Below, piece after piece: positions 16,634 through 35,287 of a stretch of DNA of 64,000 nucleotides. The DNA comes from Bifidobacterium aquikefiri. GTDB lineage: Bacteria > Actinomycetota > Actinomycetes > Actinomycetales > Bifidobacteriaceae. The position numbers and the translations under genes are program-made. The stretch lies in contig NZ_MWXA01000001.1 in assembly GCF_002259795.1 (NCBI RefSeq), positions 62,001-126,000 on the forward strand, in the 5' to 3' direction. How positions within the stretch are numbered: position 1 is the first letter of the stretch; the number at the start of each line of letters is the position of its first letter. Under the pieces are notes generated by a model. The model did not search any database and was not told the origin of the DNA. It worked only from the letters and a program-made list of their open reading frames with translations.

Positions 16634-16705
16634 AATTAGGCAACGGGAACGGGGTGAAGAATGCCGATTGTGGGATAATGGATAATACGAGTTAAGGAGG
16701 GTGTG

Positions 16706-16885
16706 ATGGATGAGCGAACACGTCGGAGCTTGGTTATTCGTGACGGCATGCATTCCGCCGAGCTTGAAGGCGGCCATGTCACTGCTGCTTATCGTCGTGA
16801 TGCGCAGGACTACATCGATGGCCACATCAATGAGGATGATCTGATCCGGCGCACACGAGTCCGATATGGTCTGGAAGCCGCATGA
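16706..16885 (+). CDS. VbhA-like antitoxin of the Fic toxin
   Basis: A 59-residue protein. The helix 'GMHSAELEGGHVT' carries the class I Fic-inhibitory motif (S/T)xxxE(G/N) as S-A-E-L-E-G, whose Glu blocks ATP gamma-phosphate placement in the Fic active site. The rest is the usual VbhA domain with 'YIDGHINEDDLIRRTRVRYG'. The ATG at 16706 is 5 bases after AAGGAGG. Its stop overlaps the Fic start as ATGA, the classic class I arrangement. Confidence 0.88.
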   Translation: MDERTRRSLVIRDGMHSAELEGGHVTAAYRRDAQDYIDGHINEDDLIRRTRVRYGLEAA

Positions 16886-17751
16886 ATGATGATGCGGGTA
16901 TCGACCCGTATCTGATCTCCGGAACGAACGTACTTCGAAACAAGGTAGACGCCCACACTGAGCAGGAGTTGGCTGACGCCGAGAATGATTTGGTCAATGC
17001 CCGGTACAGCAAGCTCAGCAGTACACCTCTGACCGCCGAGGGGACGGTCAGCCAGTTGCAGTGGATTCACCATTATCTCTTCCAGGACGTGTACGAGTGG
17101 GCGGGTCGGATCCGCACCATCGATATGAGCAAGGGCGGTGGCAGCGTCTTTCAACCCTTGCAACTGTTCGCCACGGGCGTGCAATATGCCGAGACGACGC
17201 TGCGCGATGATCTTATGCTTCAAGGCTTGGATCGAGACCAGTTCATCGAGCGACTGGCCGTCAACTTCGATAATTTCAACACCCTGCACCCCTTCCGCGA
17301 GGGCAATGGCCGCACGCAGCGCGTCTTCTGGACGCTGATCGCTAGGGACGCCGGTTGGGGCCTGGATTGGGCGCAGATATCCAAGCGTGAGAACGACATT
17401 GCCTCATTCGTCGCTCACGAGAACGTGGACTATCACCCGTTGGAATCCATGTTCGACAGAATCGTACACCCGTTGCCTCCCGAGCAGGATCGCCGACTTC
17501 TGCCGTCCATCGGTCTCACGTCAGGCAGCCATGATGATACCGAAACACCGAACGTGTACCAGGCGTTGAGTGACAGTGAGTACGAGCGGCAGCGGCAACG
17601 CTACAGCTACCAGAAGAAAGACGGCTCCGAAGCCCAGACCAAGGAAGGGTGTCAGCGACTTACGCCAGGAACTCAGAGTGAAAACCAAGTGTCTCGTAAT
17701 AGGACAATCCTCGCCCGGCGCTTTGCAGCAGAAGCACAGCGGGGGAGATGA
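16882..17751 (+). CDS. Fic-domain AMP-transferase toxin
   Basis: A 289-residue Fic protein. The catalytic motif 'HPFREGNGRTQR' is complete at about residues 136-147, with the catalytic His and the phosphate-binding GNGR. Upstream 'LFQDVYEWAGRIRTIDMSKGG' is the usual flap region. The C-terminal 60-70 residues are charged and low-complexity. By family it should AMPylate a protein target (DNA gyrase and topo IV for VbhT/FicT-type toxins). Because the antitoxin is encoded immediately upstream and the motif is intact, the toxin is likely functional. Confidence 0.92.
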   Translation: MNDDAGIDPYLISGTNVLRNKVDAHTEQELADAENDLVNARYSKLSSTPLTAEGTVSQLQWIHHYLFQDVYEWAGRIRTIDMSKGGGSVFQPLQLFATGVQYAETTLRDDLMLQGLDRDQFIERLAVNFDNFNTLHPFREGNGRTQRVFWTLIARDAGWGLDWAQISKRENDIASFVAHENVDYHPLESMFDRIVHPLPPEQDRRLLPSIGLTSGSHDDTETPNVYQALSDSEYERQRQRYSYQKKDGSEAQTKEGCQRLTPGTQSENQVSRNRTILARRFAAEAQRGR

Positions 17752-18756
17752 ATCGTGGACTGCTGACCTCACCCGCCGAGCTGGATCAGATCGACCAAGC
17801 CCCGGACGCACCAATCAACAAAAGCGTTGATCCGTGAGAATCGTGCCCCAGTCACTGCGCTGTTCCTTGCGCCTGGACATGCTGCGCCTCCATATTCACC
17901 ACATCGAATACGGGGAAAACCGTGCACCTAAACATGCACCTATCTAGACCATAATCATACGGGAACGAATGCAAGCGTACGCGAAAGTACGAAGGAAAGA
18001 CCGACGAAAGACCCAAGAAACGGCGGAATTCCAACAAAGACTGCATGAAATAAAGACTTTTAGAAAATGCCCAAAGAACCAACTGTGGAGCTAGGGAGAA
18101 TCCGATTCTACTCCTGTGAGATGCTGAAAAGACTATAAAACATCGGGACTGGGCAAATTTTGCCACGCTATTTACCACCTCAATAGGGAAATGAATTTCA
18201 GCGAATCACCACGGAGTTTATGGATGGGAAAATGGTGAAGATGGATCGGGTCATTACAAGAAATTAACTGGATTGTTTGTGGAAAGGATGATCCCATTGA
18301 CTTTCTGGTGTCGCTATCCGGACACCTTCTCATTTACATCCAGAATGAGTGTTCGAAATCACATCTGTCTCGACACATTTTCTATGCAGGTGCGGGCTTT
18401 CGGCGTGGCAATAGAGTCAATATATTGGAATATCAGTATCACGGGCCGGCTAGACCTATAATATGGAGAATACAATAACCATGTATGGATCCCGTCGCAT
18501 GCGACAAAAAACGTATACCAGAATTAACCTCTCTTATTATCCGCTGGGGGATATCGTCGAATACCGAGTGAGGAAGCTTAATAATATATTGACTATGCTG
18601 AATCAAAAGGATTTTAGGACGCCATTACCCGAATGACCCGTATGGTATGTTTCAACATCGGTTCAATCACCAACCCACCCTGTATATACCTATGTATAGC
18701 TGGTTACTAACCTTCCGGGGGTCGGTGGGCTCCCGGCACCACAGGAAGTACTGTTG
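17752..18756. other. One-kilobase gene-free region between the Fic module and the FLP cassette
   Basis: No credible gene. It contains the third tRNA/tmRNA-end-like repeat (18083-18099), a TGCACCTAAACATGC element at about 17926 like that at about 14153, and then from about 18180 a marked drop in GC. This is a likely junction between separately acquired segments. Confidence 0.6.
18083..18099. repeat. tRNA/tmRNA-end-like repeat, copy 3
   Basis: CTGTGGAGCTAGGGAGA, identical over 17 bases to 14077-14093. It continues AATCCGATTCT, reminiscent of the reverse complement of a T-arm (…GATTCTCCCTAGCTCCA). A likely attachment-site scar. Confidence 0.5.
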
Positions 18757-20358: not shown

Positions 20359-22302
20359 CTAGCGTCGGTGTTGACGTGTATCAAGTTTTCTGTGTGATAG
20401 TCGTAAAGCATTGATCACTACGACGAGGATGCTTGCCTCGTGTACCAGCATGCCCGATGCCATGTATATGAATCCGGTGAATAGGCCGATGATTAGTATT
20501 AATATTGTGATGAGGGCGATGCCAATATTCTCATATGTATTGATAACCGTTGCCTTCGCTAGAGCATGGGCAATAGGGAGTTTAGTGATATCCGAGTTCA
20601 ATAGCACGATATCGGATATCTCGATCGTTGTTGCGGTCCCATCGCCCATAGCGATTCCCAGATCTGCGACCGCTAGTGCGGGTCCGTCATTGATCCCGTC
20701 CCCGACAAACGCGATCTTCTGATTGGATCCTTGTATGGTCCTAATGAAGTTCGCTTTATCCTGAGGGAGCAGATCACCATGGGCCTCATCAAGGTCAAGC
20801 TTGCTGGAGATCTCATTCACAACAGTCTGAGAGTCGCCGGAAAGCATTATCAGGCGGCCAATGCCCTGTCTGCGTAGTTGTCTCAATGCTGCGTTGGCGT
20901 GGCGTCGGATCGTATCGCCGATACCGATCATGATACATGGCCTACCATCAATCGCGATGAATACAACGGAAAGTCCGGCGTGCATCCATTTATCCGCCAT
21001 GATCTTGTCCGAGGGGGTGACAGTGATTGCATGTGCTTGCAACAGACGTCGGTTACCGATGACTACCGTATGCTGGTCACAAATTGCACTTACGCCTTGT
21101 CCGGCGGTCACTCGGAAGTGCTTCGGTTGAGTGAACGATATTGCAGGCATACGCCGCTGTACATACGTCACCACAGCCGTCGCCAAAGGGTGGGTTGACT
21201 CTTGTTCTAAACTGGCCGCCAATCTCCATACGTAATTAATGTCCAGCTCAGGATACGGTGACGAGGTTGCGGGGATGGTGCACTCTCTCACTCGAGCCAC
21301 TGCCGGGATACCATTGGTCAGGGTTCCCGTCTTGTCAAGGACCATAACATCGACCTTACTTAGTTCATGGAACATCCGTGCCCCTTTTACAAGGATGCCG
21401 CATTTCGCTCCGAGTCCAATCCCTGCAACGTTCGATACCGGTACACCGATGACCAATGCACCAGGACAACCCAAGACAAGGATCGTGATCGCTAAGCGAA
21501 CGTCACTGGTTAGCACACCAGTCGCAAATGACACCAGAATCACAACCGGGGTATAGTACCTTGCAAAGCGGTCGATGAAACGCTGTACCGCGGTTTTGGA
21601 GTCCTCCGCCTGCTCAATCACCTCAATGATTCTTCCGAAGACTGTGTCATCACCAACCTGTGTCGTCCTCACCACAATCATGCCGTCCGTAAGGAATGAA
21701 CCAGCGAAGACCGCATCACAATCCTGTGCGGACTTACGGCGCGCGGTCGACTCTCCAGTGATGCTCGCCTCGTTAAGATTGCCATCCCCAGATACGATGA
21801 CGCCATCAACTGGAACTTGTGAACCTGTCTTTACCAGGAGATAATCACCGCTCTTGATGGCGTCAATGGTGACCTCTTCGGCATCGTGGGCTGTTGGCGA
21901 TGTGACACGTAGTGCGGTCTGGGGTGAGAGATCGATGAGGTCTTTGACTGCTGAACGCGTTTTCGTGAGTGTAGACTCTTCGATGATCTGACCGATGAGG
22001 AATAACCATGCGACGATACCGGCCTCACTAAATTCACCGATGATCAATGCTCCGACAATGGCGACACTAACTAACAGCTCTATGGAGATTACTCGGAGTT
22101 GTAAAGAAACCAACGCCTTGATGAATATGGGGATCAGCCCAAGGATGCCAGAGAGTAGATAGAATATCGATGCTATCAGTGTTCGATCTCTCATGAATGG
22201 TATTGGCAGGTACTGGATGAGAATCGCCGAAATAATGAGACCGCTCATTACATATACCATGTTCCGCATATGTCGTACGAAGTATCGTTGGATTACATGC
22301 AT
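20359..22302 (-). CDS. Heavy-metal-translocating P1B-type ATPase with CPG motif
   Basis: A 647-residue cation pump. The start at 22302 (MHVIQRYF) follows AGGAGAG; an upstream in-frame extension to 22428 lacks support. The actuator motif TGES is at about 182-185, the membrane metal motif is Cys279-Pro-Gly (where copper pumps have CPC), the phosphorylation site is D323KTGT, and 'STHPLA' (HP motif) and 'GDGINDGPAL' complete the machine. There is no N-terminal HMA domain. Related pumps sit beside FLP genes in lactobacilli and lactococci. Metal specificity (zinc, cadmium, copper or other) cannot be set from CPG alone. Confidence 0.88.
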   Translation of the reverse strand: MHVIQRYFVRHMRNMVYVMSGLIISAILIQYLPIPFMRDRTLIASIFYLLSGILGLIPIFIKALVSLQLRVISIELLVSVAIVGALIIGEFSEAGIVAWLFLIGQIIEESTLTKTRSAVKDLIDLSPQTALRVTSPTAHDAEEVTIDAIKSGDYLLVKTGSQVPVDGVIVSGDGNLNEASITGESTARRKSAQDCDAVFAGSFLTDGMIVVRTTQVGDDTVFGRIIEVIEQAEDSKTAVQRFIDRFARYYTPVVILVSFATGVLTSDVRLAITILVLGCPGALVIGVPVSNVAGIGLGAKCGILVKGARMFHELSKVDVMVLDKTGTLTNGIPAVARVRECTIPATSSPYPELDINYVWRLAASLEQESTHPLATAVVTYVQRRMPAISFTQPKHFRVTAGQGVSAICDQHTVVIGNRRLLQAHAITVTPSDKIMADKWMHAGLSVVFIAIDGRPCIMIGIGDTIRRHANAALRQLRRQGIGRLIMLSGDSQTVVNEISSKLDLDEAHGDLLPQDKANFIRTIQGSNQKIAFVGDGINDGPALAVADLGIAMGDGTATTIEISDIVLLNSDITKLPIAHALAKATVINTYENIGIALITILILIIGLFTGFIYMASGMLVHEASILVVVINALRLSHRKLDTRQHRR

Positions 22303-22997
22303 TAGAATCTCTCCTCTTGTCCAGTACTTGTAAGATAGCGGGGACGTGGATAAAAGGAATTGATAGCCGTCAAGGGAAGTTTGGACGGGATCCTCACCGT
22401 GAGATCCGAGCGTTGCGACATGAATCATTCGGGAGAAGTATGGTAATCCATTCGTTCTCGGTATCGTTCAATTTTCACGGGTACCCTGCAGGATCGCTGC
22501 TCGTCGCTCTAACATTGCGGGTTGCTGACCTGGTATTAAATATGGTTCCATCTTGAGGGGTACCTCCAACGTATCCTATGGATACCATGATGCTCTTGCC
22601 TCAGGTGGCAGAAGCATAACTATGATGAGACATACTCGTCATGGTGGGCAGAACTACGTCTTGTACGGTTATTGGGCGTGCTCATGGAAAGGGTGCGCCC
22701 TCTATCATGGGTTGGTGGTGGTACTCGGTTATCGCCGAACCGGGATAGTATGCTATGGGCATCGGGTCGATCCTTTCGCAACGGCACCGTCAAAGATTTC
22801 TATGTGTGTAGGATGACCCCGTAGGAATCGCGAAGGAGGTGCATAACTTGAGCCTACTGGCAGTGGGGCGGGTCGCAGGGAAGGGATCCCGGGTCGGACT
22901 CGATCATGAACAAGTCCCAGCCGTTAGCTGTATTCAGAGATGTGATGCGTGAGGGGTGAGGGGGCTATTCCTGGATTCTGCATACATCTTCGGGATA
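22303..22997. other. Gene-free AT-rich spacer upstream of the P-type ATPase
   Basis: About 700 bases with no credible frame. It must hold the promoter of the minus-strand metal operon; the SD sequence of the ATPase is at its left end. No clear palindromic FLP/FNR site was found by eye. Confidence 0.5.
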
Positions 22998-24932: not shown

Positions 24933-25017
24933 CTCAAGGTAGCTGATTCATTTCGCGCTGCACTCCCCTCGTTCGGACGACTTAGGATAGTTCCGACAAT
25001 CACAAAGATCAAGAGTA

Positions 25018-25062
25018 ACTACATATTGTGTCGAAAAAAATTTTGATTACTATATCTAGTGG
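25018..25062 (+). promoter_or_regulatory. Two NrdR boxes upstream of the class II ribonucleotide reductase
   Basis: Box 1 at 25018-25031 reads A-CTACATATTGTGT and box 2 at 25049-25062 reads A-CTATATCTAGTGG, both close to the NrdR consensus acaCwAtATaTwGtgt. Their starts are 31 bases apart, three helical turns, as is typical for tandem NrdR sites. Box 2 ends 38 bases before the ATG. NrdR represses reductase genes when (d)ATP is high. No nrdR gene is in the window. Confidence 0.8.
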
Positions 25063-25100
25063 TTTTAAAAATTAGTGATTGTATGTGAAGGGGAAGAACC

Positions 25101-27326
25101 ATGGACGAGGGATCTGTCATCACGCTTGATCAAGCATTCGTTGACCAAGTGAATCAAAGCGTTGAACCTCACTGGGGGCCACTTGGCTGGGTTACCTATA
25201 AACGCACATACGCGCGTTTCATTGACGCTGAGAACCGGTCCGAGGAATGGTCTGAAACAGTACAACGCGTGGTTGAGGGCAATATCAATCTTGATCCCAG
25301 ACTGCATGATGACAGTGTTACGGATAAGGATGCGCTGGTTCGCACACTCACCAACGAGGCTCAGAGCTTGTACAAGCTGATCTATGGTCTTGCGGCAACC
25401 CCATCTGGACGCAATTTGTGGGTGAGCGGAACGCAGTATCAGCGTGAGCATGGCGATTCACTCAATAACTGCTGGTTTATTTCCATAAAACCACAACGCT
25501 ACGGTGATTCCGCAATTGTTCCATCGTATGTGAATGCGCAGCAAGAAACCGTGTCGATGCCCTTCGCATTCATGTTTGACCAACTCATGAAAGGCGGCGG
25601 TGTCGGATTCTCTGTTACTCGTAACAATATTGAACACATACCGAAGGTTGCGTGCACCCGCAATCTGACCATTGTGGTAAGCAGCAAGAATGGGTCGGCT
25701 GAAGAAGCTTGCAAATCCGGTGCGGTTGACCGAGATGAATGGTTGGCTCACCATCCAGTTACGGAAGATGCGCCGTTCTATTACGAGGTTCCTGATACAC
25801 GTGAGGGATGGGTGGAAGCGCTTGCGACAGTCATTGACGCACACTTCGACTATTTCCCGAAAGCCCACGATTCAATCGTCATAGACATCTCACGCATTCG
25901 TGCACGAGGAGAACGCATTCACGGCTTTGGTGGAACAGCCTCAGGAGCAGCACCCCTTGTCGAGATGCTTCTCGATGTCAATTCGATTGTGAATGCGGCG
26001 GTACACGGACATCTCTCATCGGTGGACGCTACGGATATCGGCAATCTGATAGGCAAAGCTGTGGTTGCAGGAAACGTTCGGCGTTCTGCTGAACTGGCTT
26101 TGGGAAATTGGGATGATGAAGCCTTTGTGACGATGAAACAAGATCAGCAGAAGCTGTACCATCACCGTTGGGCTTCCAACAATTCTGTAGCAGTCTCTGG
26201 TGATAGGCAGGAATACGAAAGAATTGCTGATTCCATCAGGGTTAATGGTGAACCTGGAGTTGTTGATCTCGATCTCTCTCGACATTACGGGCGTCTTGTC
26301 GATGGTCGTTCAGATTCTTCGGATATTCTCGCGGAAGGAACAAATCCTTGCGGTGAAATCACGTTGGAGAATGGTGAACCGTGCAATTTATTCGAAGTAT
26401 TTCCTGATATTGCACAGCAGCAGGGTTGGGATCTTGGGACTGTGTTCTCTCTTGCAGCTCGATTTGCGAAGCGAGTGACTTTCGGTCATTATGACTGGGA
26501 GGTCTCACGTAAGGTCATTGAACGTAACCGGCGTATTGGTATCTCTATGTCAGGTATACAAGACTGGTTCCTGAACCGTTTTGGTCACCGGGTGGTTATA
26601 GGATTCACACAGCAGCGAGAGCCGATTTTCGATAAGCGTGCAATTGCCGAGGTTGACGCATTATATCGTGATGTAGTTCAGGCAGACAACGCGTATTCCG
26701 CGCAACTGCATTGTCCGACATCACTTAAGCACACCACGGTGAAACCCTCTGGAACAGTTGCCAAGTTAGCAGGAGCTTCAGAAGGTATGCATTTCCATTA
26801 CGCACCATACCTCATACAGCGCATCCGTTTCCAGGAAGACGACCCATTGCTTCCAGCGCTTCAAGCTTGCGGATACACGATTGAGCCCGATGTGTATACG
26901 GAACATACGATGTGTGTCGAATTCCCAGTCGAAGCCGAGAATGCCGATTCCCAGCGTTTTGCATCAGCAGGAACAGTGTCGGCTCAGGAGCAGTTGGCGA
27001 CGCAGACGTTCTTGCAAACCTATTGGGCAGATAATGCAGTGAGCTGCACGATAACATTCCAAGAGAGTGAAAAGCCATCATTACCCAGCATCCTCAGTGA
27101 CTATGCAGGCCTGATTAAATCCACTTCCATGCTGCCTTATTCGGGTGCAGGATTCAAACAAGCCCCCAAAGAACCCATAAGCAAGACCACATATGAGCAC
27201 ATAGTTGGCCAGATTAGCGATGATCCTCATCAAGTGTTCTTGCGGTTGAACCCTCAGCATGATCGTGACGACCTTGTTCTCGTCGATCAGAGCGATTGCG
27301 TGAGTGGCGCGTGCCCGGTTCGTTAG
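25101..27326 (+). CDS. nrdJ: Adenosylcobalamin-dependent class II ribonucleoside-triphosphate reductase
   Basis: A 741-residue monomeric RTPR, almost the size of the Lactobacillus leichmannii enzyme (739). It reduces NTPs to dNTPs using adenosylcobalamin to make the active-site thiyl radical. All essential cysteines are visible with the correct spacing: Cys124 in 'LNNCWF', Cys417 (thiyl site) in 'NPCGEI' and Cys428 eleven residues on, plus the C-terminal shuttle pair C733/C738 in 'CVSGACPV'. Start: ATG after AGGGGAAG. It is preceded by two NrdR boxes and followed by genes for cobalamin import and adenylation. No oxygen or extra subunit is needed, so it can work aerobically or anaerobically. 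Confidence 0.95.
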   Translation: MDEGSVITLDQAFVDQVNQSVEPHWGPLGWVTYKRTYARFIDAENRSEEWSETVQRVVEGNINLDPRLHDDSVTDKDALVRTLTNEAQSLYKLIYGLAATPSGRNLWVSGTQYQREHGDSLNNCWFISIKPQRYGDSAIVPSYVNAQQETVSMPFAFMFDQLMKGGGVGFSVTRNNIEHIPKVACTRNLTIVVSSKNGSAEEACKSGAVDRDEWLAHHPVTEDAPFYYEVPDTREGWVEALATVIDAHFDYFPKAHDSIVIDISRIRARGERIHGFGGTASGAAPLVEMLLDVNSIVNAAVHGHLSSVDATDIGNLIGKAVVAGNVRRSAELALGNWDDEAFVTMKQDQQKLYHHRWASNNSVAVSGDRQEYERIADSIRVNGEPGVVDLDLSRHYGRLVDGRSDSSDILAEGTNPCGEITLENGEPCNLFEVFPDIAQQQGWDLGTVFSLAARFAKRVTFGHYDWEVSRKVIERNRRIGISMSGIQDWFLNRFGHRVVIGFTQQREPIFDKRAIAEVDALYRDVVQADNAYSAQLHCPTSLKHTTVKPSGTVAKLAGASEGMHFHYAPYLIQRIRFQEDDPLLPALQACGYTIEPDVYTEHTMCVEFPVEAENADSQRFASAGTVSAQEQLATQTFLQTYWADNAVSCTITFQESEKPSLPSILSDYAGLIKSTSMLPYSGAGFKQAPKEPISKTTYEHIVGQISDDPHQVFLRLNPQHDRDDLVLVDQSDCVSGACPVR

Positions 27327-27331
27327 GTGTT

Positions 27332-28381
27332 GTGGAAACATCCTCCGAATTGTCTGCATACGAAGCATTGAAAACATCATCTAAGTTCACCCAGCCGTTG
27401 GAAAAGCTGCATGGTGCGATGCTTCGCAGACATCGTCAGCTTGAGCAGTTCGCACTCATGGCCTTCCATAGACTTTCGTTGGCAGCAGTGTTGTGGCATC
27501 ATCTCGCCATAGTTTTCATATGTGGCATGAATCTGTCAATACCTTTGCAAATGTGGATTATCGTGCTGCTCGTATCCTTCGAAATGATATCCTCTCGAGT
27601 CAGACCAGTGCTGACAACACTTATGTATGGCACGATCATGGGACTGATGATAACGCTCGCGGCACTGGTGTTCGATACAGAAGGCAGTGCAATTCTGATA
27701 CATCTCTGGGGATGGATGCCGACAACACAGGCACTGCAATCCGGAATATCTCACGCATTATCGTTTCTCATCATTATGATTGTGGCACTTTCGCAAACGC
27801 GTAATGCTCACAGCTTGGGATCGCCAAAAGCGATGCAACATTGGATGCCCCAATTTTCAATAGTGCTAAGCCTATGCATGACCATGATTCCTGATCTCGC
27901 ACGGCAAGTGATGTCACTACGCTTCCTTGTCAAGCGATATCAGGCATGTAGAGTGGACACTGCGACACAATATTCCGGCGGATGGCATCGTGACAATTCG
28001 CGATGTATCTTGGTACGAGCACTCATGTATACAGTTTTGGTTGAATCAATACAGTGCGCTTCAACACGTGCCGGTGCGCTCACTCGGGTAGTATCCACCT
28101 CTTCGAGCGATATGCGCCTTCGCCATCGCCCACCACAATCTTTAGACATGCTACAGCCACCTGGCCGTCAGAGTGCGGCTATGAGATGGACCAATGCCAA
28201 CCGTGTGCGCTCTGAGAGGTCACGTCGCTTCGTCGCTGTTTCGGGAATGCTGTTCCTGCTCTTAATGGTGCAGCTGTGGAATGAATCTTTTAGGGAGAGT
28301 GTTTTCAGTGTTACCTTGCTTGTTGCCTTACCATACCTGTTTGCAATGGAGGAGCTGATATGGGCGAAATTGCACGCATAA
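27332..28381 (+). CDS. ECF transporter T component (EcfT-like)
   Basis: A transmembrane coupling subunit of about 350 residues. Hydrophobic spans lie in the first half ('LSLAAVLWHHLAIVFICGM', 'LMITLAALVF', 'SFLIIMIVAL') and at the C-terminus. Between them are 'DLARQVMSLRFLVKRYQACR', 'RALMYTVLVESIQCASTRAGAL', matching the EcfT coupling-helix region where two Ala-Arg-Gly-like motifs touch the ATPases (here 'STRAGA'). The start is uncertain: GTG at 27332 is used because the frame opens upstream inside nrdJ. The stop overlaps the ATPase start by 22 bases. Inferred partner of the following A and S genes. Confidence 0.75.
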   Translation: METSSELSAYEALKTSSKFTQPLEKLHGAMLRRHRQLEQFALMAFHRLSLAAVLWHHLAIVFICGMNLSIPLQMWIIVLLVSFEMISSRVRPVLTTLMYGTIMGLMITLAALVFDTEGSAILIHLWGWMPTTQALQSGISHALSFLIIMIVALSQTRNAHSLGSPKAMQHWMPQFSIVLSLCMTMIPDLARQVMSLRFLVKRYQACRVDTATQYSGGWHRDNSRCILVRALMYTVLVESIQCASTRAGALTRVVSTSSSDMRLRHRPPQSLDMLQPPGRQSAAMRWTNANRVRSERSRRFVAVSGMLFLLLMVQLWNESFRESVFSVTLLVALPYLFAMEELIWAKLHA

Positions 28382-30171
28382 GCCATTACAGCTACATGTA
28401 TCCGCACTCGCAAGCATCGTCTTGTGGCGAGTCTCCTCAGGCATTGAATGACGTATCTTTCACCGTTTCACAGGGAGAATTCATTGTGCTCACCGGCTTC
28501 ACAGGAAGTGGAAAGACAACCTTGTTGCGTCATCTCAATCCTGATTTTTCCTTGCAGGGAAAACATCAAGGGTGTGTGCACGTTGCAAAGCGTACCAGAA
28601 GTAACGAGTCGGGCGAGAGCAGCAATGTGCGGATTGGATACGTTCCCCAGCATCCGAAAGACGTTATGGTAGCGGAAACACTGCGCGATGATCTCGCAAT
28701 CAGGCTTTCAAGTCCCCAAGCGAGTAAACACAGAAGCGCCACTAATGTCGAGACATTAGCGTTGATGGCAAACGACATTATTGGATTCCTTGGTATTGCA
28801 TCCATCGTTGACATCCCAGTTTCGCAGTTATCTGAGGGGCAGAGCCAGCTGGTGGCATTAGCGGCTGTCCTCTCAACGAGGCCAGACATGTTGCTACTTG
28901 ATGAGCCGACCGCCTATTTGGATTCAGTGACTCGCAGGAATACCCTCGATGTATTGCAACGTCTCAATATTGATGATGGCCTCACCATAGTCATTGCAGA
29001 GCATCGCCTCAGTGGATTACTGCCCATGTCTGATCGGATCATTGCTTTGCACCATGGGCGAATTATCGTTGATGATCAACCTCGTGTGGCGTTGCGAACA
29101 TTATATGCTGATCCTGAACTACGACCTCTGATTCCTGATGTCCCTAGAGTTTTTCTCGAATATTATTGCCGGACGTCACAGCTGAATCATCACATGCACA
29201 GCAGCGAAGCATGTGTGCCGCTGGGAGTTGGAGAGGGAAGACGAGAACTGGAATCCATCACAGCATACGGCGACAATGCATCATGTACAAACAAAGATCC
29301 TCTGACAAGCCGGATTATGAACACCACTGACGCGCAGACCGCAACTGAGGATCCGCACGTTTCACCAATCCTACAAGTGAACGGACTGAGTTACACGTAT
29401 CCGCAGGCAAGCAGGAGCGCATTGGAAGATATCACTTTCACTGCCAACGCAGCTCAGGTAGTCGCGGTGACGGGACAAAGCGGAAGCGGGAAGAGCACAC
29501 TATTTCAGCTGCTCAGCGGTGTGATTAATCCACAGTACGGCACTATCACATGGGACATGCACAATGACAACGAGACTGAGCATCAAGTCTCGAACAAGCA
29601 TCAGGGTGACCGGAGTCGCCCGTGGAGCATATTCCACAATCGCCATGCTCATACCCGTCGCATGCATCCTTCTCAGGCGGGTCCATACATTGGATACGTG
29701 CCGCAGGACTGTCGCATCTTACTGAATTTCGAGGCTGGATATAACCCCGAACAATCAATAAGTCATGGGATTTACGACGCAAGCAATGGGGAACAGCAGT
29801 TGAAAACAGTGATGAGTGTCATCCGTGAAACACACCAGATCCTTATATTGGATGAACCAACACAGGGTTTAGACACCAATGCAACGAAAATTGTCGGGCA
29901 AGCCCTAGTCAGAAAAGCCTCACAGGGCTGCCTAGTGATGATATCTTCTCATGATCCCGATTTCTGCATCACATATGCCACCCAAGCCATCGTCATCATG
30001 GGCGGACACATAGTCGCATACGATACCCCTCAAAGCATCATCGGCAGCCAACACTATTCAACGACTGACATCCACCGATTATTCGCTCATATTGACAACC
30101 GTATCCTTACCTTGCCGCAATCCGAAGCGTTTATTGCCGGACAGGTAGGGCAAGAGGTGCAAATGCCCTAA
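28360..30171 (+). CDS. Fused double ATPase (A-A') of an ECF transporter
   Basis: A 603-residue protein with two ABC ATPase domains in one chain. Domain 1: Walker A 'GFTGSGKTT', signature 'LSEGQSQL', Walker B 'LLLDEPTAYLD'. Domain 2: Walker A 'GQSGSGKST', signature 'SNGEQQL', Walker B 'LILDEPTQGLD'. The second signature departs from LSGGQ, so the two ATP sites are probably unequal. A His-rich insert (about 29575-29680) interrupts domain 2. It drives uptake together with the T and S subunits on either side. Start ATG follows GGAGGAG. Confidence 0.9.
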   Translation: MGEIARISHYSYMYPHSQASSCGESPQALNDVSFTVSQGEFIVLTGFTGSGKTTLLRHLNPDFSLQGKHQGCVHVAKRTRSNESGESSNVRIGYVPQHPKDVMVAETLRDDLAIRLSSPQASKHRSATNVETLALMANDIIGFLGIASIVDIPVSQLSEGQSQLVALAAVLSTRPDMLLLDEPTAYLDSVTRRNTLDVLQRLNIDDGLTIVIAEHRLSGLLPMSDRIIALHHGRIIVDDQPRVALRTLYADPELRPLIPDVPRVFLEYYCRTSQLNHHMHSSEACVPLGVGEGRRELESITAYGDNASCTNKDPLTSRIMNTTDAQTATEDPHVSPILQVNGLSYTYPQASRSALEDITFTANAAQVVAVTGQSGSGKSTLFQLLSGVINPQYGTITWDMHNDNETEHQVSNKHQGDRSRPWSIFHNRHAHTRRMHPSQAGPYIGYVPQDCRILLNFEAGYNPEQSISHGIYDASNGEQQLKTVMSVIRETHQILILDEPTQGLDTNATKIVGQALVRKASQGCLVMISSHDPDFCITYATQAIVIMGGHIVAYDTPQSIIGSQHYSTTDIHRLFAHIDNRILTLPQSEAFIAGQVGQEVQMP

Positions 30172-30252
30172 TACCTATTGTCGTAATCTCCATATCACAT
30201 TAATCATCTTCCCAAGTAATGAACAGTATGCAAGAAAAGAGCAACTGATTTG

Positions 30253-31080
30253 ATGAGCAGTCATATAGCACAAGAATCAACGGCACATACTGATATCGAT
30301 AGTGCCAACGATCTAGAGGAACAGACCAATAATCCACATCCAACACCGGCGCAGCATATTCGGACGATATCGCTCGTTTTTCTTGGGCTCCTCGGTATAT
30401 GCCTCATACTCCTCCTCGTCCAATCCGTGTTCCGCATGGATACCGCCTACGCATTCGCAATAATTATCGTTCCCGTGATTGCGGCAGTAGCCCTGTGGAT
30501 AATAGAGAAACAGAAGCTGGATACCGTTACCCTCGCGATAACTGCTGCGCTTGCGGCACTTGCTGTTGTCTCCAGAATCGTGAAAATACCAATACCAGAT
30601 GTAGAACTTACTAGTTTTCTGGTGATTCTTGCAGGGTTGTCACTTGGACCCGAATCAGGTTTCCTTACAGGGGCTCTCAACGCACTCATCTCAAATGCTT
30701 GGCTTGGTCAGGGCGCCTGGACACCGTGGCAAATGCTTGCGTGGGGGATCATGGGAGCTGCTGCTGGTTGGATACGAGGATACAGATGGAGTCAGAATCG
30801 TATCGTGATGTTTGTTTGGGGAATAGTATGGGCTTTCATATTTGGCTGGATTCTTGATATTTGGTCATGGCTCACCTATATCCGTGTGTACACCGTACCG
30901 GCGTTCTTTGCCTCTCTTGCATCTTCGGCACCGTTTGACATGATGAACGCGATCTCTACAGGTGTATTGCTGCTCATCACCACCCCATGGGCTGTCAACC
31001 TGATTCGTCGCGCTCAAGATGACAACACCGTGTCGCCAGAAACTTCCGATGCTCATGTGGTACAAGAGCCTTACGAATAA
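30253..31080 (+). CDS. ECF transporter S component, predicted cobalamin-specific
   Basis: A 275-residue membrane protein with about six spans after a hydrophilic N-terminal stretch of about 30 residues. 'FLVILAGLSLGPESGFLTGALNALISNAWLGQGAWTPWQM' fits the ECF S-component pattern ('GP..G...G....i.d......p...'). The substrate is inferred as cobalamin or a precursor because the gene sits between a B12-dependent reductase with its ECF machinery and a corrinoid adenosyltransferase; the sequence itself does not fix the ligand. The ATG at 30253 is used. The gap from the ATPase gene is about 80 bases with no terminator seen. Confidence 0.8.
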   Translation: MSSHIAQESTAHTDIDSANDLEEQTNNPHPTPAQHIRTISLVFLGLLGICLILLLVQSVFRMDTAYAFAIIIVPVIAAVALWIIEKQKLDTVTLAITAALAALAVVSRIVKIPIPDVELTSFLVILAGLSLGPESGFLTGALNALISNAWLGQGAWTPWQMLAWGIMGAAAGWIRGYRWSQNRIVMFVWGIVWAFIFGWILDIWSWLTYIRVYTVPAFFASLASSAPFDMMNAISTGVLLLITTPWAVNLIRRAQDDNTVSPETSDAHVVQEPYE

Positions 31081-31113
31081 GAGCCGCGAGGTTGGGAAGG
31101 GTATGAGCATACG

Positions 31114-31653
31114 ATGAAGATTTATACAAGACGAGGTGATGCGGGTTCAAGCAGGCAAATGAATGGTCATAGCATACCTAAATCAGATCCTCAGATTCTC
31201 GCTGTCGGGGTTCTCGATGAAACGCAATCCTGGATTGGTCTCGTCATATCGGATCTATCTCCGGCTTGCACTCAGCTTGAGTCTAAGCTACTGCATGTTC
31301 AATCCTTGCTGTATCTACTTCAGGCAGACATCAGTATTGATAATCGTTGCAGCATTCATGATAATGACGTGACGATAATGGAGCATGAGATTGATTCTAT
31401 GATGAGTGCTGTGCCTGCTATTCATGCTTTCATTCTTCCCGGAGGAGGACATACAGGAGCACAGCTGCAATATGCCCGAACCCTAGCCCGTGGGGCAGAA
31501 CGAGCGTGTGTGGCATTCCACAGCACACGACCCGATCGGGTTCAGCCTGAGAGTATGCGTTTCATTAACCGTCTCTCAGATTATCTATTTGCAATGGCTC
31601 TGTACGCGAATCATCTCGACGGCATTCCCGAAAAAATGTCCCGAGAATCATGA
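31114..31653 (+). CDS. PduO-type ATP:cob(I)alamin adenosyltransferase
   Basis: A 179-residue protein with all PduO/MMAB landmarks: 'IYTRRGDAGSS' (ATP-binding N-terminus), 'GVLDETQSWIGLV', 'FILPGGG', 'QYARTLARGAERACV' and 'RFINRLSDYLFAMAL'. It converts cob(I)alamin to adenosylcobalamin, the cofactor of the class II reductase encoded 4 kb upstream. Start ATG at 31114 shortly after the S-component stop. Together these genes form a complete import-activate-use pathway for B12. Confidence 0.93.
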   Translation: MKIYTRRGDAGSSRQMNGHSIPKSDPQILAVGVLDETQSWIGLVISDLSPACTQLESKLLHVQSLLYLLQADISIDNRCSIHDNDVTIMEHEIDSMMSAVPAIHAFILPGGGHTGAQLQYARTLARGAERACVAFHSTRPDRVQPESMRFINRLSDYLFAMALYANHLDGIPEKMSRES

Positions 31654-33951: not shown

Positions 33952-33984
33952 TGTGTAATTAATGACCGTTTTCTAGACAATCCC

Positions 33985-34011
33985 ACGGCCTGCCGACCCA
34001 GGCCGTTTTTT
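33985..34011 (+). terminator. Rho-independent terminator
   Basis: ACGGCCTG pairs with CAGGCCGT around a 6-base loop and is followed by six T. It closes the small membrane-protein unit. Confidence 0.88.
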
Positions 34012-34101
34012 CATGCTGAAACGTGTATGGAAACCCGTGCAAGAATCAGAGTGCAGTAATCGCTTGATTGGGTTGAGTTTCTTCACATAAGAACCTGCAC
34101 G

Positions 34102-34123
34102 TAGCACGAAAGTGTGCTATACT
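34102..34123 (+). promoter_or_regulatory. Promoter with palindromic operator for the toxin-antitoxin operon
   Basis: The inverted repeat AGCAC..GTGCT (about 34103-34118) abuts TATACT at 34118-34123, a good -10 box. The position only about 7 bases before the GTG at 34130 suggests a leaderless or near-leaderless transcript, repressed by the RHH protein encoded downstream. Confidence 0.5.
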
Positions 34124-34129
34124 TATGTC

Positions 34130-34387
34130 GTGTCTTCAAGGATGGTGTTTGCCCGCTCGGCCGAGCGTCATGGTTACACGGTCGCCGATGTGCTGTTTGC
34201 GTATCAGCATCTGATTCGTCGTAAGGTGCTGGTGCGTAGCGGTGAACGCTATCTTAAGTTCACTGGACTGCACCACGGTGACCCGCTGGTGCCGAGCATC
34301 GAGGTCATGATGAAGATCATACCGGGGCAGGGCATCGTGGTGTTCCATGTGAACGCCGAACAGGGTGGCTTCTGGGACAAGGATTGA
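34130..34387 (+). CDS. BrnT-like toxin candidate
   Basis: About 85 residues: 'FARSAERHGYTVADVLFAYQHLIRR' followed by a beta-rich half ending 'GQGIVVFHVNAEQ'. The 'SAxxHGvs..D...A....' helix followed by strands is the pattern of small putative toxins with a BrnT-like fold paired to RHH antitoxins. The start is GTG 34130 (leaderless) or ATG 34142; there is no clear ribosome site for either. The stop lies 16 bases before the antitoxin ATG. Function is inferred from pairing. Confidence 0.6.
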   Translation: MSSRMVFARSAERHGYTVADVLFAYQHLIRRKVLVRSGERYLKFTGLHHGDPLVPSIEVMMKIIPGQGIVVFHVNAEQGGFWDKD

Positions 34388-34403
34388 AAGGTAGGTGAAC
34401 CTC

Positions 34404-34736
34404 ATGGCATTGCAGGACGAGACGTGGCAGTGGGATGATTCTCAGGCGGTGGAGAGTACCGCCGCCCAGGCTCAGGTTGAGGCCGATCACGATTTGATGG
34501 AGGCGGCCGGCACCGATAATGTTGCGGATGCCGTGGCTGTATTGATGGGCAGGCCTCGCCTGGGGGACAAGCCCAGGGAGAAGAGCGTGCAGATTCATTT
34601 CAAGGCTTCCGAGTCGATGGCTGCCTTCGTGGACGAGCAGCGCAAACAGTCTGGAATGCGCAACAAGTCCGAGTATCTGCGCATGCTCATAGAGCAGGAG
34701 ATGAAGCACCAGCACCACCGGTTGCAGGCCGCGTGA
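34404..34736 (+). CDS. Ribbon-helix-helix antitoxin/partner protein
   Basis: A 110-residue protein with a charged N-terminal part and a C-terminal RHH domain: the strand 'KSVQIHFKAS', the helix 'SMAAFVDEQRKQSG' and a second helix 'NKSEYLRMLIEQEM'. RHH proteins dimerise to bind operator DNA and the rest wraps the toxin. AGG lies 8 bases before the ATG at 34404. The next gene, the resolvase, starts immediately after its stop, so toxin, antitoxin and resolvase may be one transcript. Confidence 0.75.
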   Translation: MALQDETWQWDDSQAVESTAAQAQVEADHDLMEAAGTDNVADAVAVLMGRPRLGDKPREKSVQIHFKASESMAAFVDEQRKQSGMRNKSEYLRMLIEQEMKHQHHRLQAA

Positions 34737-34738
34737 CC

Positions 34739-35287
34739 ATGATCGTCGGTTATGCCAGGGTGAGCACTCTGGAGCAGAACGAGCGGTTGCAGACCGACGC
34801 GCTCACCAGGGCAGGATGCGAACGGCTGTTCACCGACCATGCGTCCGGCGCGAAGGCGCACCGGCCCGAACTGGACCATATGCTCGACACCATCCGCGAG
34901 GGGGACACGCTCGTCGTGTGGAAGCTCGACCGGCTCGGCCGTAGCGTGCAGAACCTCGTCGATCTCATGAACCTGCTGCAAGTAAAGGGAGTGGGGTTCA
35001 AAAGCCTGACGGAGAACATGGACACCACCACACCCGGAGGCGTGCTGATCTTCAACGTGTTCGCCGCGATGGCGCAGTTCGAACGCGACCTGATACGGGA
35101 ACGCACCAACGCGGGATTGCAGGCCGCCAGGGCCAGGGGACACCTGGGTGGCAGGCCATCCAAGCTTGACGGGAGGCAGCGCAAACGCATCCGCGAACTC
35201 TACCAGGGCAGGACGCTCACCGTGCAGGAGATCGCCGACCAGTACCACGTCAGCCGGCAGACCATATACAGCGTCATCAAGGCATAG
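34739..35287 (+). CDS. Serine resolvase/invertase
   Basis: A 182-residue small serine recombinase. 'GYARVSTLEQ' contains the nucleophile Ser9, 'VWKLDRLGRSVQNL' and 'FNVFAAMAQFERDLIRERT' are the standard catalytic and E-helix segments, and the C-terminal HTH is 'TVQEIADQYHVSRQTIYSVI'. It would resolve cointegrates or invert DNA at res-type sites. Start ATG at 34739, one base past the antitoxin stop region. A perfect 28-base palindrome overlaps its stop codon. The last 20 or so codons recur as a fragment at 39113-39178. Confidence 0.93.
   Translation: MIVGYARVSTLEQNERLQTDALTRAGCERLFTDHASGAKAHRPELDHMLDTIREGDTLVVWKLDRLGRSVQNLVDLMNLLQVKGVGFKSLTENMDTTTPGGVLIFNVFAAMAQFERDLIRERTNAGLQAARARGHLGGRPSKLDGRQRKRIRELYQGRTLTVQEIADQYHVSRQTIYSVIKA

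Follow-up and report, generated by a model that had tools for sequence, protein, structure and literature searches.

An operon for predicted B12 import, adenosylation and class II ribonucleotide reduction under putative NrdR control in Bifidobacterium aquikefiri

In a 64-kb stretch of the Bifidobacterium aquikefiri genome (contig NZ_MWXA01000001.1; hereafter the window, meaning this whole stretch), we studied a set of genes encoding an adenosylcobalamin-dependent ribonucleotide reductase, NrdJ, together with a putative importer of the energy-coupling factor (ECF) type and an adenosyltransferase of the PduO type. We consider it highly probable that this set forms an NrdR-controlled operon that imports B12, adenosylates it and spends it on synthesis of deoxyribonucleoside triphosphates (dNTPs). 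A first-pass annotation of the same DNA had suggested as much, and this remains the best reading of the locus; a profile of the S component finds only CbrT among solved structures at E<=1. The parts listed in that annotation, namely NrdR boxes, a five-cysteine NrdJ, a T component, a fused A-A' ATPase, an S component and PduO, were all found in one direction and tightly packed at 25016-31653, as given here in window positions.

25016..25031, no strand assigned: NrdR box 1, TAACTACATATTGTGT
25047..25062, no strand assigned: NrdR box 2, TTACTATATCTAGTGG, 31 bp from box 1
25101..27326, plus strand: nrdJ, monomeric adenosylcobalamin-dependent ribonucleoside-triphosphate reductase (RTPR) type, from TIGR02505 and alignment with 1l1l
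27419..28381, plus strand: ECF T component, divergent; open reading frame 27296-28381, with TTG 27296 as a possible and 27419 as the probable start
28360..30171, plus strand: fused ECF A-A' ATPase, matched twice by ABC_tran
A half of the A-A' ATPase, from sequence motifs: K52, Q97 and LSEGQ at 157-161
A' half of the A-A' ATPase: K378, Q449 and ASNGEQ at 474-479, with a gap of 25 residues from Q449 to S475
30253..31080, plus strand: CbrT-like S component, extended at its N terminus by two helices; the start could instead be TTG 30250
31114..31653, plus strand: pduO, ATP:cob(I)alamin adenosyltransferase, from TIGR00636

The T and A-A' genes share 22 bases, and the T gene starts either within nrdJ or 92 bases downstream of it. 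In the mechanism that we propose, the S component would capture cobalamin, or another cobamide or cobinamide, and the operon's own T and A-A' motor would drive release of the cofactor inside the cell, whereupon PduO would adenosylate it using ATP and NrdJ would use the adenosylcobalamin for reduction of NTPs to dNTPs, with or without oxygen. Plentiful dATP would make NrdR act on both boxes and shut the operon, and B12 uptake would follow the demand for DNA precursors, with no B12 riboswitch involved. The substrate, the direction of uptake, adenosylation, dNTP synthesis and the dATP-dependent repression by NrdR are predicted here from characterised homologues. Riboswitch control was rejected, as the window had no Rfam match at gathering score.

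NrdJ, PduO and the S component

NrdJ matched TIGR02505 over its full length with 741.9 bits (curated cut-off 340.05) and aligned end to end with 1l1l (residues 5-739 of the latter), with each of C124, C417, C428, C733 and C738 pairing with a cysteine of 1l1l; we take these five to have the mechanistic roles known for such enzymes. Judged by its sequence, NrdJ is an intact monomeric class II reductase with a predicted adenosylcobalamin-dependent activity. The PduO protein scored 142.6 bits against TIGR00636 (cut-off 108.45) and had 3ci1 as a solved relative, at E 1e-29.

The S protein of the window has the S-component fold. When compared with solved structures as a single sequence it matched CbrT at E 7.8e-6, with the next S protein at E 0.29, and as a profile it matched CbrT at E 7.5e-14, this being the sole match at E<=1. 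Clustering with another vitamin family, named in the first-pass annotation as the outcome that would speak against a role in B12 uptake, was thus not seen. Two predicted helices precede the core fold, and a similar N-terminal extension was found in the other S proteins whose genes have a T-AA' set to themselves, being missing in the lactobacillar CbrT-like proteins beside nrdJ.

A cluster of this kind is already known from Lactobacillus delbrueckii and from lactobacillar plasmids (nrdJ-cbrT-pduO). According to Santos et al. 2018 (PMC5997447), L. delbrueckii carries nrdJ-cbrS-cbrT-pduO, and transport of both cobalamin and cobinamide by ECF-CbrT was measured. The window operon resembles that cluster in having RTPR, a CbrT-type S component and PduO together, but it differs in including T and the fused A-A', in the two extra N-terminal helices of S and in the motifs of its motor.

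Distribution among Bifidobacteriaceae

We searched 189 Bifidobacteriaceae genomes, with genera given as codes (g1 is that of the window, g5 includes B. mongoliense). NrdJ was found over the cut-off in 16 of them, and it is rare in bifidobacteria, as the first-pass annotation had supposed for this reductase class. In the survey of co-occurrence that it had proposed, PduO was over the cut-off in the same 16 genomes and in none of the 173 others, with 31 more showing weak PduO matches only, a coincidence expected once in 10^22.8 if the genomes were independent, which they are not. Presence of NrdJ varies within three genera (1 of 27 genomes in g1, 2 of 4 in g2 and 1 of 112 in g5). Strong S matches (E<1e-46) were seen in the 16 NrdJ genomes and in one more, the incomplete G162, where a fragment of nrdJ lies at the end of a contig, and outside the NrdJ-bearing genomes there were only weak ones (about 1e-14), in G001 and G002. 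Because 11 of the 17 strong-S genomes supplied rows to the S query alignment and match by construction, the information lies in the absence of S from the remaining genomes.

The B12-binding domain PF02310 was over the cut-off in none of the 189 genomes and below it in 58. Within the limits of this search, which covered B12 enzymes carrying that domain, NrdJ is the only B12 consumer found. With NrdJ and PduO confined to the same 16 genomes, and with no PF02310 match over the cut-off, the substrate of S is very probably a corrinoid. The exact association between gene and cofactor thereby gives a pointer to what an uncharacterised family of S components carries, and it singles out lineages expected to need scavenged B12 for making DNA.

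As for the other reductase classes, NrdD matched in 175 of the 189 genomes (174 over the cut-off), and the 14 without it comprised all seven genomes of g12, all three of g13 and four genomes of 57-81% completeness. NrdE/NrdA, searched for with matches limited to E<=1e-40, was over the cut-off in 141 of the 189 genomes, in six genera, with none in g8, g12 or g13. It was present in two of the 16 NrdJ genomes (that of the window and G063, B. mongoliense) as compared with 139 of the remaining 173. Within g2, both NrdJ genomes lacked NrdE and the two without NrdJ had it. Since NrdE is mostly missing where NrdJ is present, class II seems to take the place of class Ib. No other reductase class than class II was found in any of the 10 genomes of g12 and g13 (0.6-1.4 Mb), while the genome of the window has classes Ib, II and III, with NrdJ as its third reductase. 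Alnajar et al. 2017 (PMC5535262) state that no known bifidobacteria harbor class II. That printed statement is contradicted here and does not hold, since B. mongoliense DSM 21395 (NZ_JGZE01000012.1) carries the operon, and another statement of that paper fails for g12 and g13, going by the assemblies searched; we found no paper describing a class II reductase of bifidobacteria in the open-access literature searched.

NrdR control

Pairs of NrdR boxes were scored with the NrdR box consensus and judged against the 250 bp upstream after dinucleotide shuffling (300 shuffles). For the pair in the window, two 16-mers 31 bp apart, none of the 300 shuffles scored as well. Across 17 nrdJ starts (those of 16 bifidobacterial nrdJ genes and one truncated nrdJ), a pair at 30-31 bp beat all 300 shuffles before 14, the best-scoring pair being that of the truncated nrdJ of G130. 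NrdR itself was over the cut-off in all 15 genomes searched. The paired boxes together with an nrdR gene place the operon in the putative NrdR regulon, with repression as the predicted effect.

The T and A-A' motor

The T protein alone gave no Pfam or NCBIfam match. Its family profile matched EcfT at E 6.1e-5 and two lactobacillar T proteins at 98.5% in hhalign, and in terms of sequence T is a homologue of EcfT/CbiQ. Its frame was open in all 14 operon-linked loci aligned. For the motor we compared 11 operon-linked AA' proteins with four others, from Lactobacillus sp. HBUAS51381 (L075), Secundilactobacillus odoratitofui (L083) and two bifidobacterial metagenome-assembled genomes (G163 and G164 of g8), whose T-AA'-S sets share with the window a fused A-A', an extended S and a homologous T. 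The distance from Q-loop to signature serine in A' was 22-30 residues in nine of the 11 and 55 in the other two (G181 and G182, with an arginine-rich insertion in A'), whereas it was 51-71 in the four comparison proteins; in the A half it was 45-70. The A' signature was LSGGQ in none of the 11, the window having a degenerate ASNGEQ, and the A signature was LSEGQ (7) or LSAGQ (4). The degenerate second signature (SNGEQ) pointed out in the first-pass annotation is therefore real, and it belongs to a motor oddity of the whole family. Walker A lysines and H-loop histidines were kept in both halves of all 15 aligned AA' proteins, and Walker B in both halves of 13. A structural model of AA' (predicted local distance difference test score 67.5 from five sequences, under 50 at 460-468) was used solely for the short helices that it places between Q449 and S475. 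The four comparison sets differ from the window in that the helical region of A' has its full length, the signatures read SGG[QE] and A retains its Q-helix glutamine; they also keep the CH3 arginine of T, whose loss in the operon-linked T proteins depends on the alignment (see below). By these sequence comparisons, what is peculiar to the operon-type motor is its shortened A' helical region and degenerate A' signature.

Gene order in other genomes

The order nrdJ-T-AA'-S-pduO is not confined to this genome, although such confinement was the other outcome that the first-pass annotation had named as refuting, but occurs in five genera: in the window (g1), B. mongoliense (g5), the two nrdJ-bearing genomes of g2, three of g13 (one of them, G181, on a contig beginning inside nrdJ) and seven of g12. 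Between the window and B. mongoliense, identities were 73% for NrdJ, 72% for S (residues 109-268), 66% for PduO, 43% for AA' and 31% for T. Among the best 80 of 127 relatives, 76 of which were lactobacillar, T-AA'-S adjoined nrdJ in two of the 76 lactobacillar loci (L075 and L083), and a solo CbrT-like S, found by tblastn with the window S, stood between nrdJ and pduO in 15. Four lactobacillar plasmids with nrdJ had pduO nearby in all four cases and an annotated ECF S gene in three, and two of them were typed as mobilizable, so that related units do travel. On the L. intestinalis plasmid the order was nrdJ-DUF4430-S-pduO; the window operon has no DUF4430 gene.

Within g1, over-cut-off nrdJ was present in only one of the 27 genomes. 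In an NrdD tree of which only the nine genus rows (9 of the 27 genomes) were used, since several rows from other genera had been translated in a wrong frame, G130 was the nearest of the eight congeners compared, and there the anchors matching window positions 16668-17609 and 33966-35272 lie about 5 kb apart, as against 16.4 kb in the window genome, the operon thus lying within about 16 kb that have no close counterpart at the syntenic site. A Fic-domain gene (16668-17797) and a serine resolvase gene (34733-35287) bound this variable stretch, and G130 has several similar copies of each.

Both G130 (C1:138902-139294, L029) and G140 (C3, L030) carry a truncated nrdJ of about 129 first codons, with both NrdR boxes kept. 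The fragment was 67% identical to B. mongoliense, the nearest among the NrdJs fetched, and 60% to the window, whereas NrdD of the window genome (G000) is 97% identical to that of G130. Decay within the genus from one recent ancestor was therefore rejected, and the fragment does not stem from a recent break in the window nrdJ. The 10-kb stretch around the fragment was 99.6% identical between G130 and G140 while their NrdD proteins were less alike, and it has therefore probably moved recently.

Alternative explanations

Several observations speak against the operon as a B12 importer serving NrdJ. The S fold is shared across substrates and does not tell them apart, and identity of S to eight lactobacillar CbrT-like proteins was 24-28% only. 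The S gene of B. mongoliense DSM 21395 (L014 4946-5862) is split over two overlapping frames, which reflects either a sequencing error or decay; in G163/G164 the operon is nrdJ-pduO only, with the T-AA'-S set located elsewhere; and three of the 17 nrdJ starts (L020, L025 and L027) lacked a box pair beating all shuffles. Furthermore, the motor is without features described as indispensable in other ECF transporters. According to PMC6828968 and PMC4820897, each A subunit holds the arginine at the end of a T coupling helix by means of its Q-helix (X-P-D/E-X-Q) and an acidic residue in its helical region, contacts that assembly and ATPase activity are reported to require, and the former describes an arginine (X-R-X) ending both coupling helices, CH2 and CH3. 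In the window the Q-helix reads QHPKDVM (A) and QDCRILL (A'), departing from X-P-D/E-X-Q, the glutamine of this motif occurs in neither half of the 11 operon-linked AA' proteins aligned, and none of the 14 operon-linked T proteins has an arginine in the CH2 column. All four comparison proteins have that glutamine in A, and L075 has it in A' as well, unlike L083, G163 and G164, so that its loss from A' extends beyond the operon type. Arginine in the CH2 column is present in L075 and L083 and absent in G163 and G164. In the CH3 column, R or K was found in four of the 14 operon-linked T proteins, all from g12, and R in all four comparison proteins; loss of both T arginines was first considered, but since each of the 14 has an R or K 7-11 residues before it that might fall into that column in a different alignment, the CH3 loss depends on the alignment and the claim is weakened accordingly.

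That the cargo of S is some other vitamin (riboflavin, folate, thiamin or a precursor), with its place beside nrdJ due to chance, is most improbable in our judgement: the shared fold does not separate substrates, and 6fnp (CbrT) is not among the structure-match rows listed for S, but CbrT alone was matched in the profile search, S matches beyond the nrdJ genomes were two weak ones, and the Pfam label 'riboflavin' on S was also given to two lactobacillar CbrT-like proteins beside nrdJ, one of them below the cut-off. We give more room, although it is still unlikely, to a decaying T-AA' motor that has lost transport, with S acting alone or with a borrowed motor and only nrdJ, S and pduO mattering. 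Conserved T and A' motifs are lost or changed, AA' and T are the most divergent parts, and G163/G164 have a separate set with more canonical motifs. Against decay stand the retained Walker A, Walker B and H-loop residues and the open T frames described above, and also dN/dS, which in three unsaturated pairs of moderate divergence was 0.11-0.18 for AA' and 0.17-0.39 for T (a fourth gene pair was saturated), with 0.05-0.07 for NrdJ in two of the three. This constraint argues for a working but altered motor. A recent arrival of the operon from a lactobacillus via a mobile element would fit with the lactobacillar plasmids carrying nrdJ, pduO and mostly S, with the 16 kb lacking a counterpart in G130, with the serine resolvase gene, and with the finding that only two non-Bifidobacteriaceae among 396 genomes of the order had NrdJ over the cut-off, at 368 bits at most. 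We nevertheless regard it as quite improbable. In quick tree searches, 29 lactobacillar NrdJs fell on one side of a branch with support 100* (30 of the 76 lactobacillar loci were entered and L095, with 21 residues extracted, was dropped; the root was unused, as the three outgroup rows joined among the bifidobacterial ones by a very long branch), and 24 lactobacillar PduOs did so with support 89 (against 13 bifidobacterial rows, with a long L083 branch). The window NrdJ was nearest to B. mongoliense and G163/G164, and operon GC content, 49%, is near the 51-52% of three other sampled stretches of the genome. With the 29 lactobacillar NrdJs placed in this way, the tree shows no recent donor among lactobacilli. 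The acquired metabolic bypass suggested in the first-pass annotation is hence only partly borne out, no such donor being seen and classes Ib and III being present in the same genome.

Returning to the operon as a B12 importer for NrdJ, its transporter is by sequence an ECF importer that is non-canonical in the coupling features tested. It could be a working importer with a rewired, one-sided motor, indispensable for DNA synthesis in g12 and g13, where no reductase other than class II was found, a joint reading that we put forward tentatively and rate at somewhat below even; its one-sided use of ATP is read from sequence. In such a motor, A' would lack most of the helical region gripping T and have a degenerate signature, the CH2 contact of T would be gone, and a single near-canonical ATP site would drive B12 uptake. 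Weighing against this reading, the comparison motors also lack A' Q-helix glutamines, two of them lack the CH2 arginine, and the CH3 arginine may be kept. Heterodimeric ATP-binding cassette transporters such as TM287/288 and CFTR, which are exporters or a channel, have one composite ATP site that is degenerate in its signature; the window motor resembles them in that respect and differs in its shortened helical region. We did not find an ECF motor of this sort described in the open-access literature searched; if active, it would be a natural experiment on the contacts that an ECF transporter really needs.

Additional observations

Origins from a phage or from a low-GC island were also considered and rejected, the former because the 1193 phage records matching NrdJ all had <60% identity (about 33% in the 15 listed), the latter because the operon is close in GC content to the genome samples and the window instead becomes GC-rich (58%) after 34 kb.

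Secreted-looking proteins adjoin T-AA'-S sets of the B12 type (L179 10474-11796, L180 10944-12281 and L083 5619-6398), with Pfam DUF4430 assigned in L179 and L083 and the L180 protein being a look-alike. The separate sets of G163/G164 adjoin a secreted DUF4430 or DUF4430-like protein, and in L083, G163 and G164, unlike in the window, it stands beside T. By analogy with transcobalamin, which such proteins resemble, they may be extracellular corrinoid binders.

A Sir2-family deacylase gene directly follows pduO in g2, g12 and two g13 loci, that is in 11 loci by tblastn, one of them cut by a contig end (L016 14493-15287, L019 15483-16325, L028 15752-16501 and L026 8043-8753, and also L018, L021-L025 and L027); it was not found in the window or the B. 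mongoliense stretch. Upstream of the window operon, on the opposite strand, lies a heavy-metal P-type ATPase gene (20359-22428).

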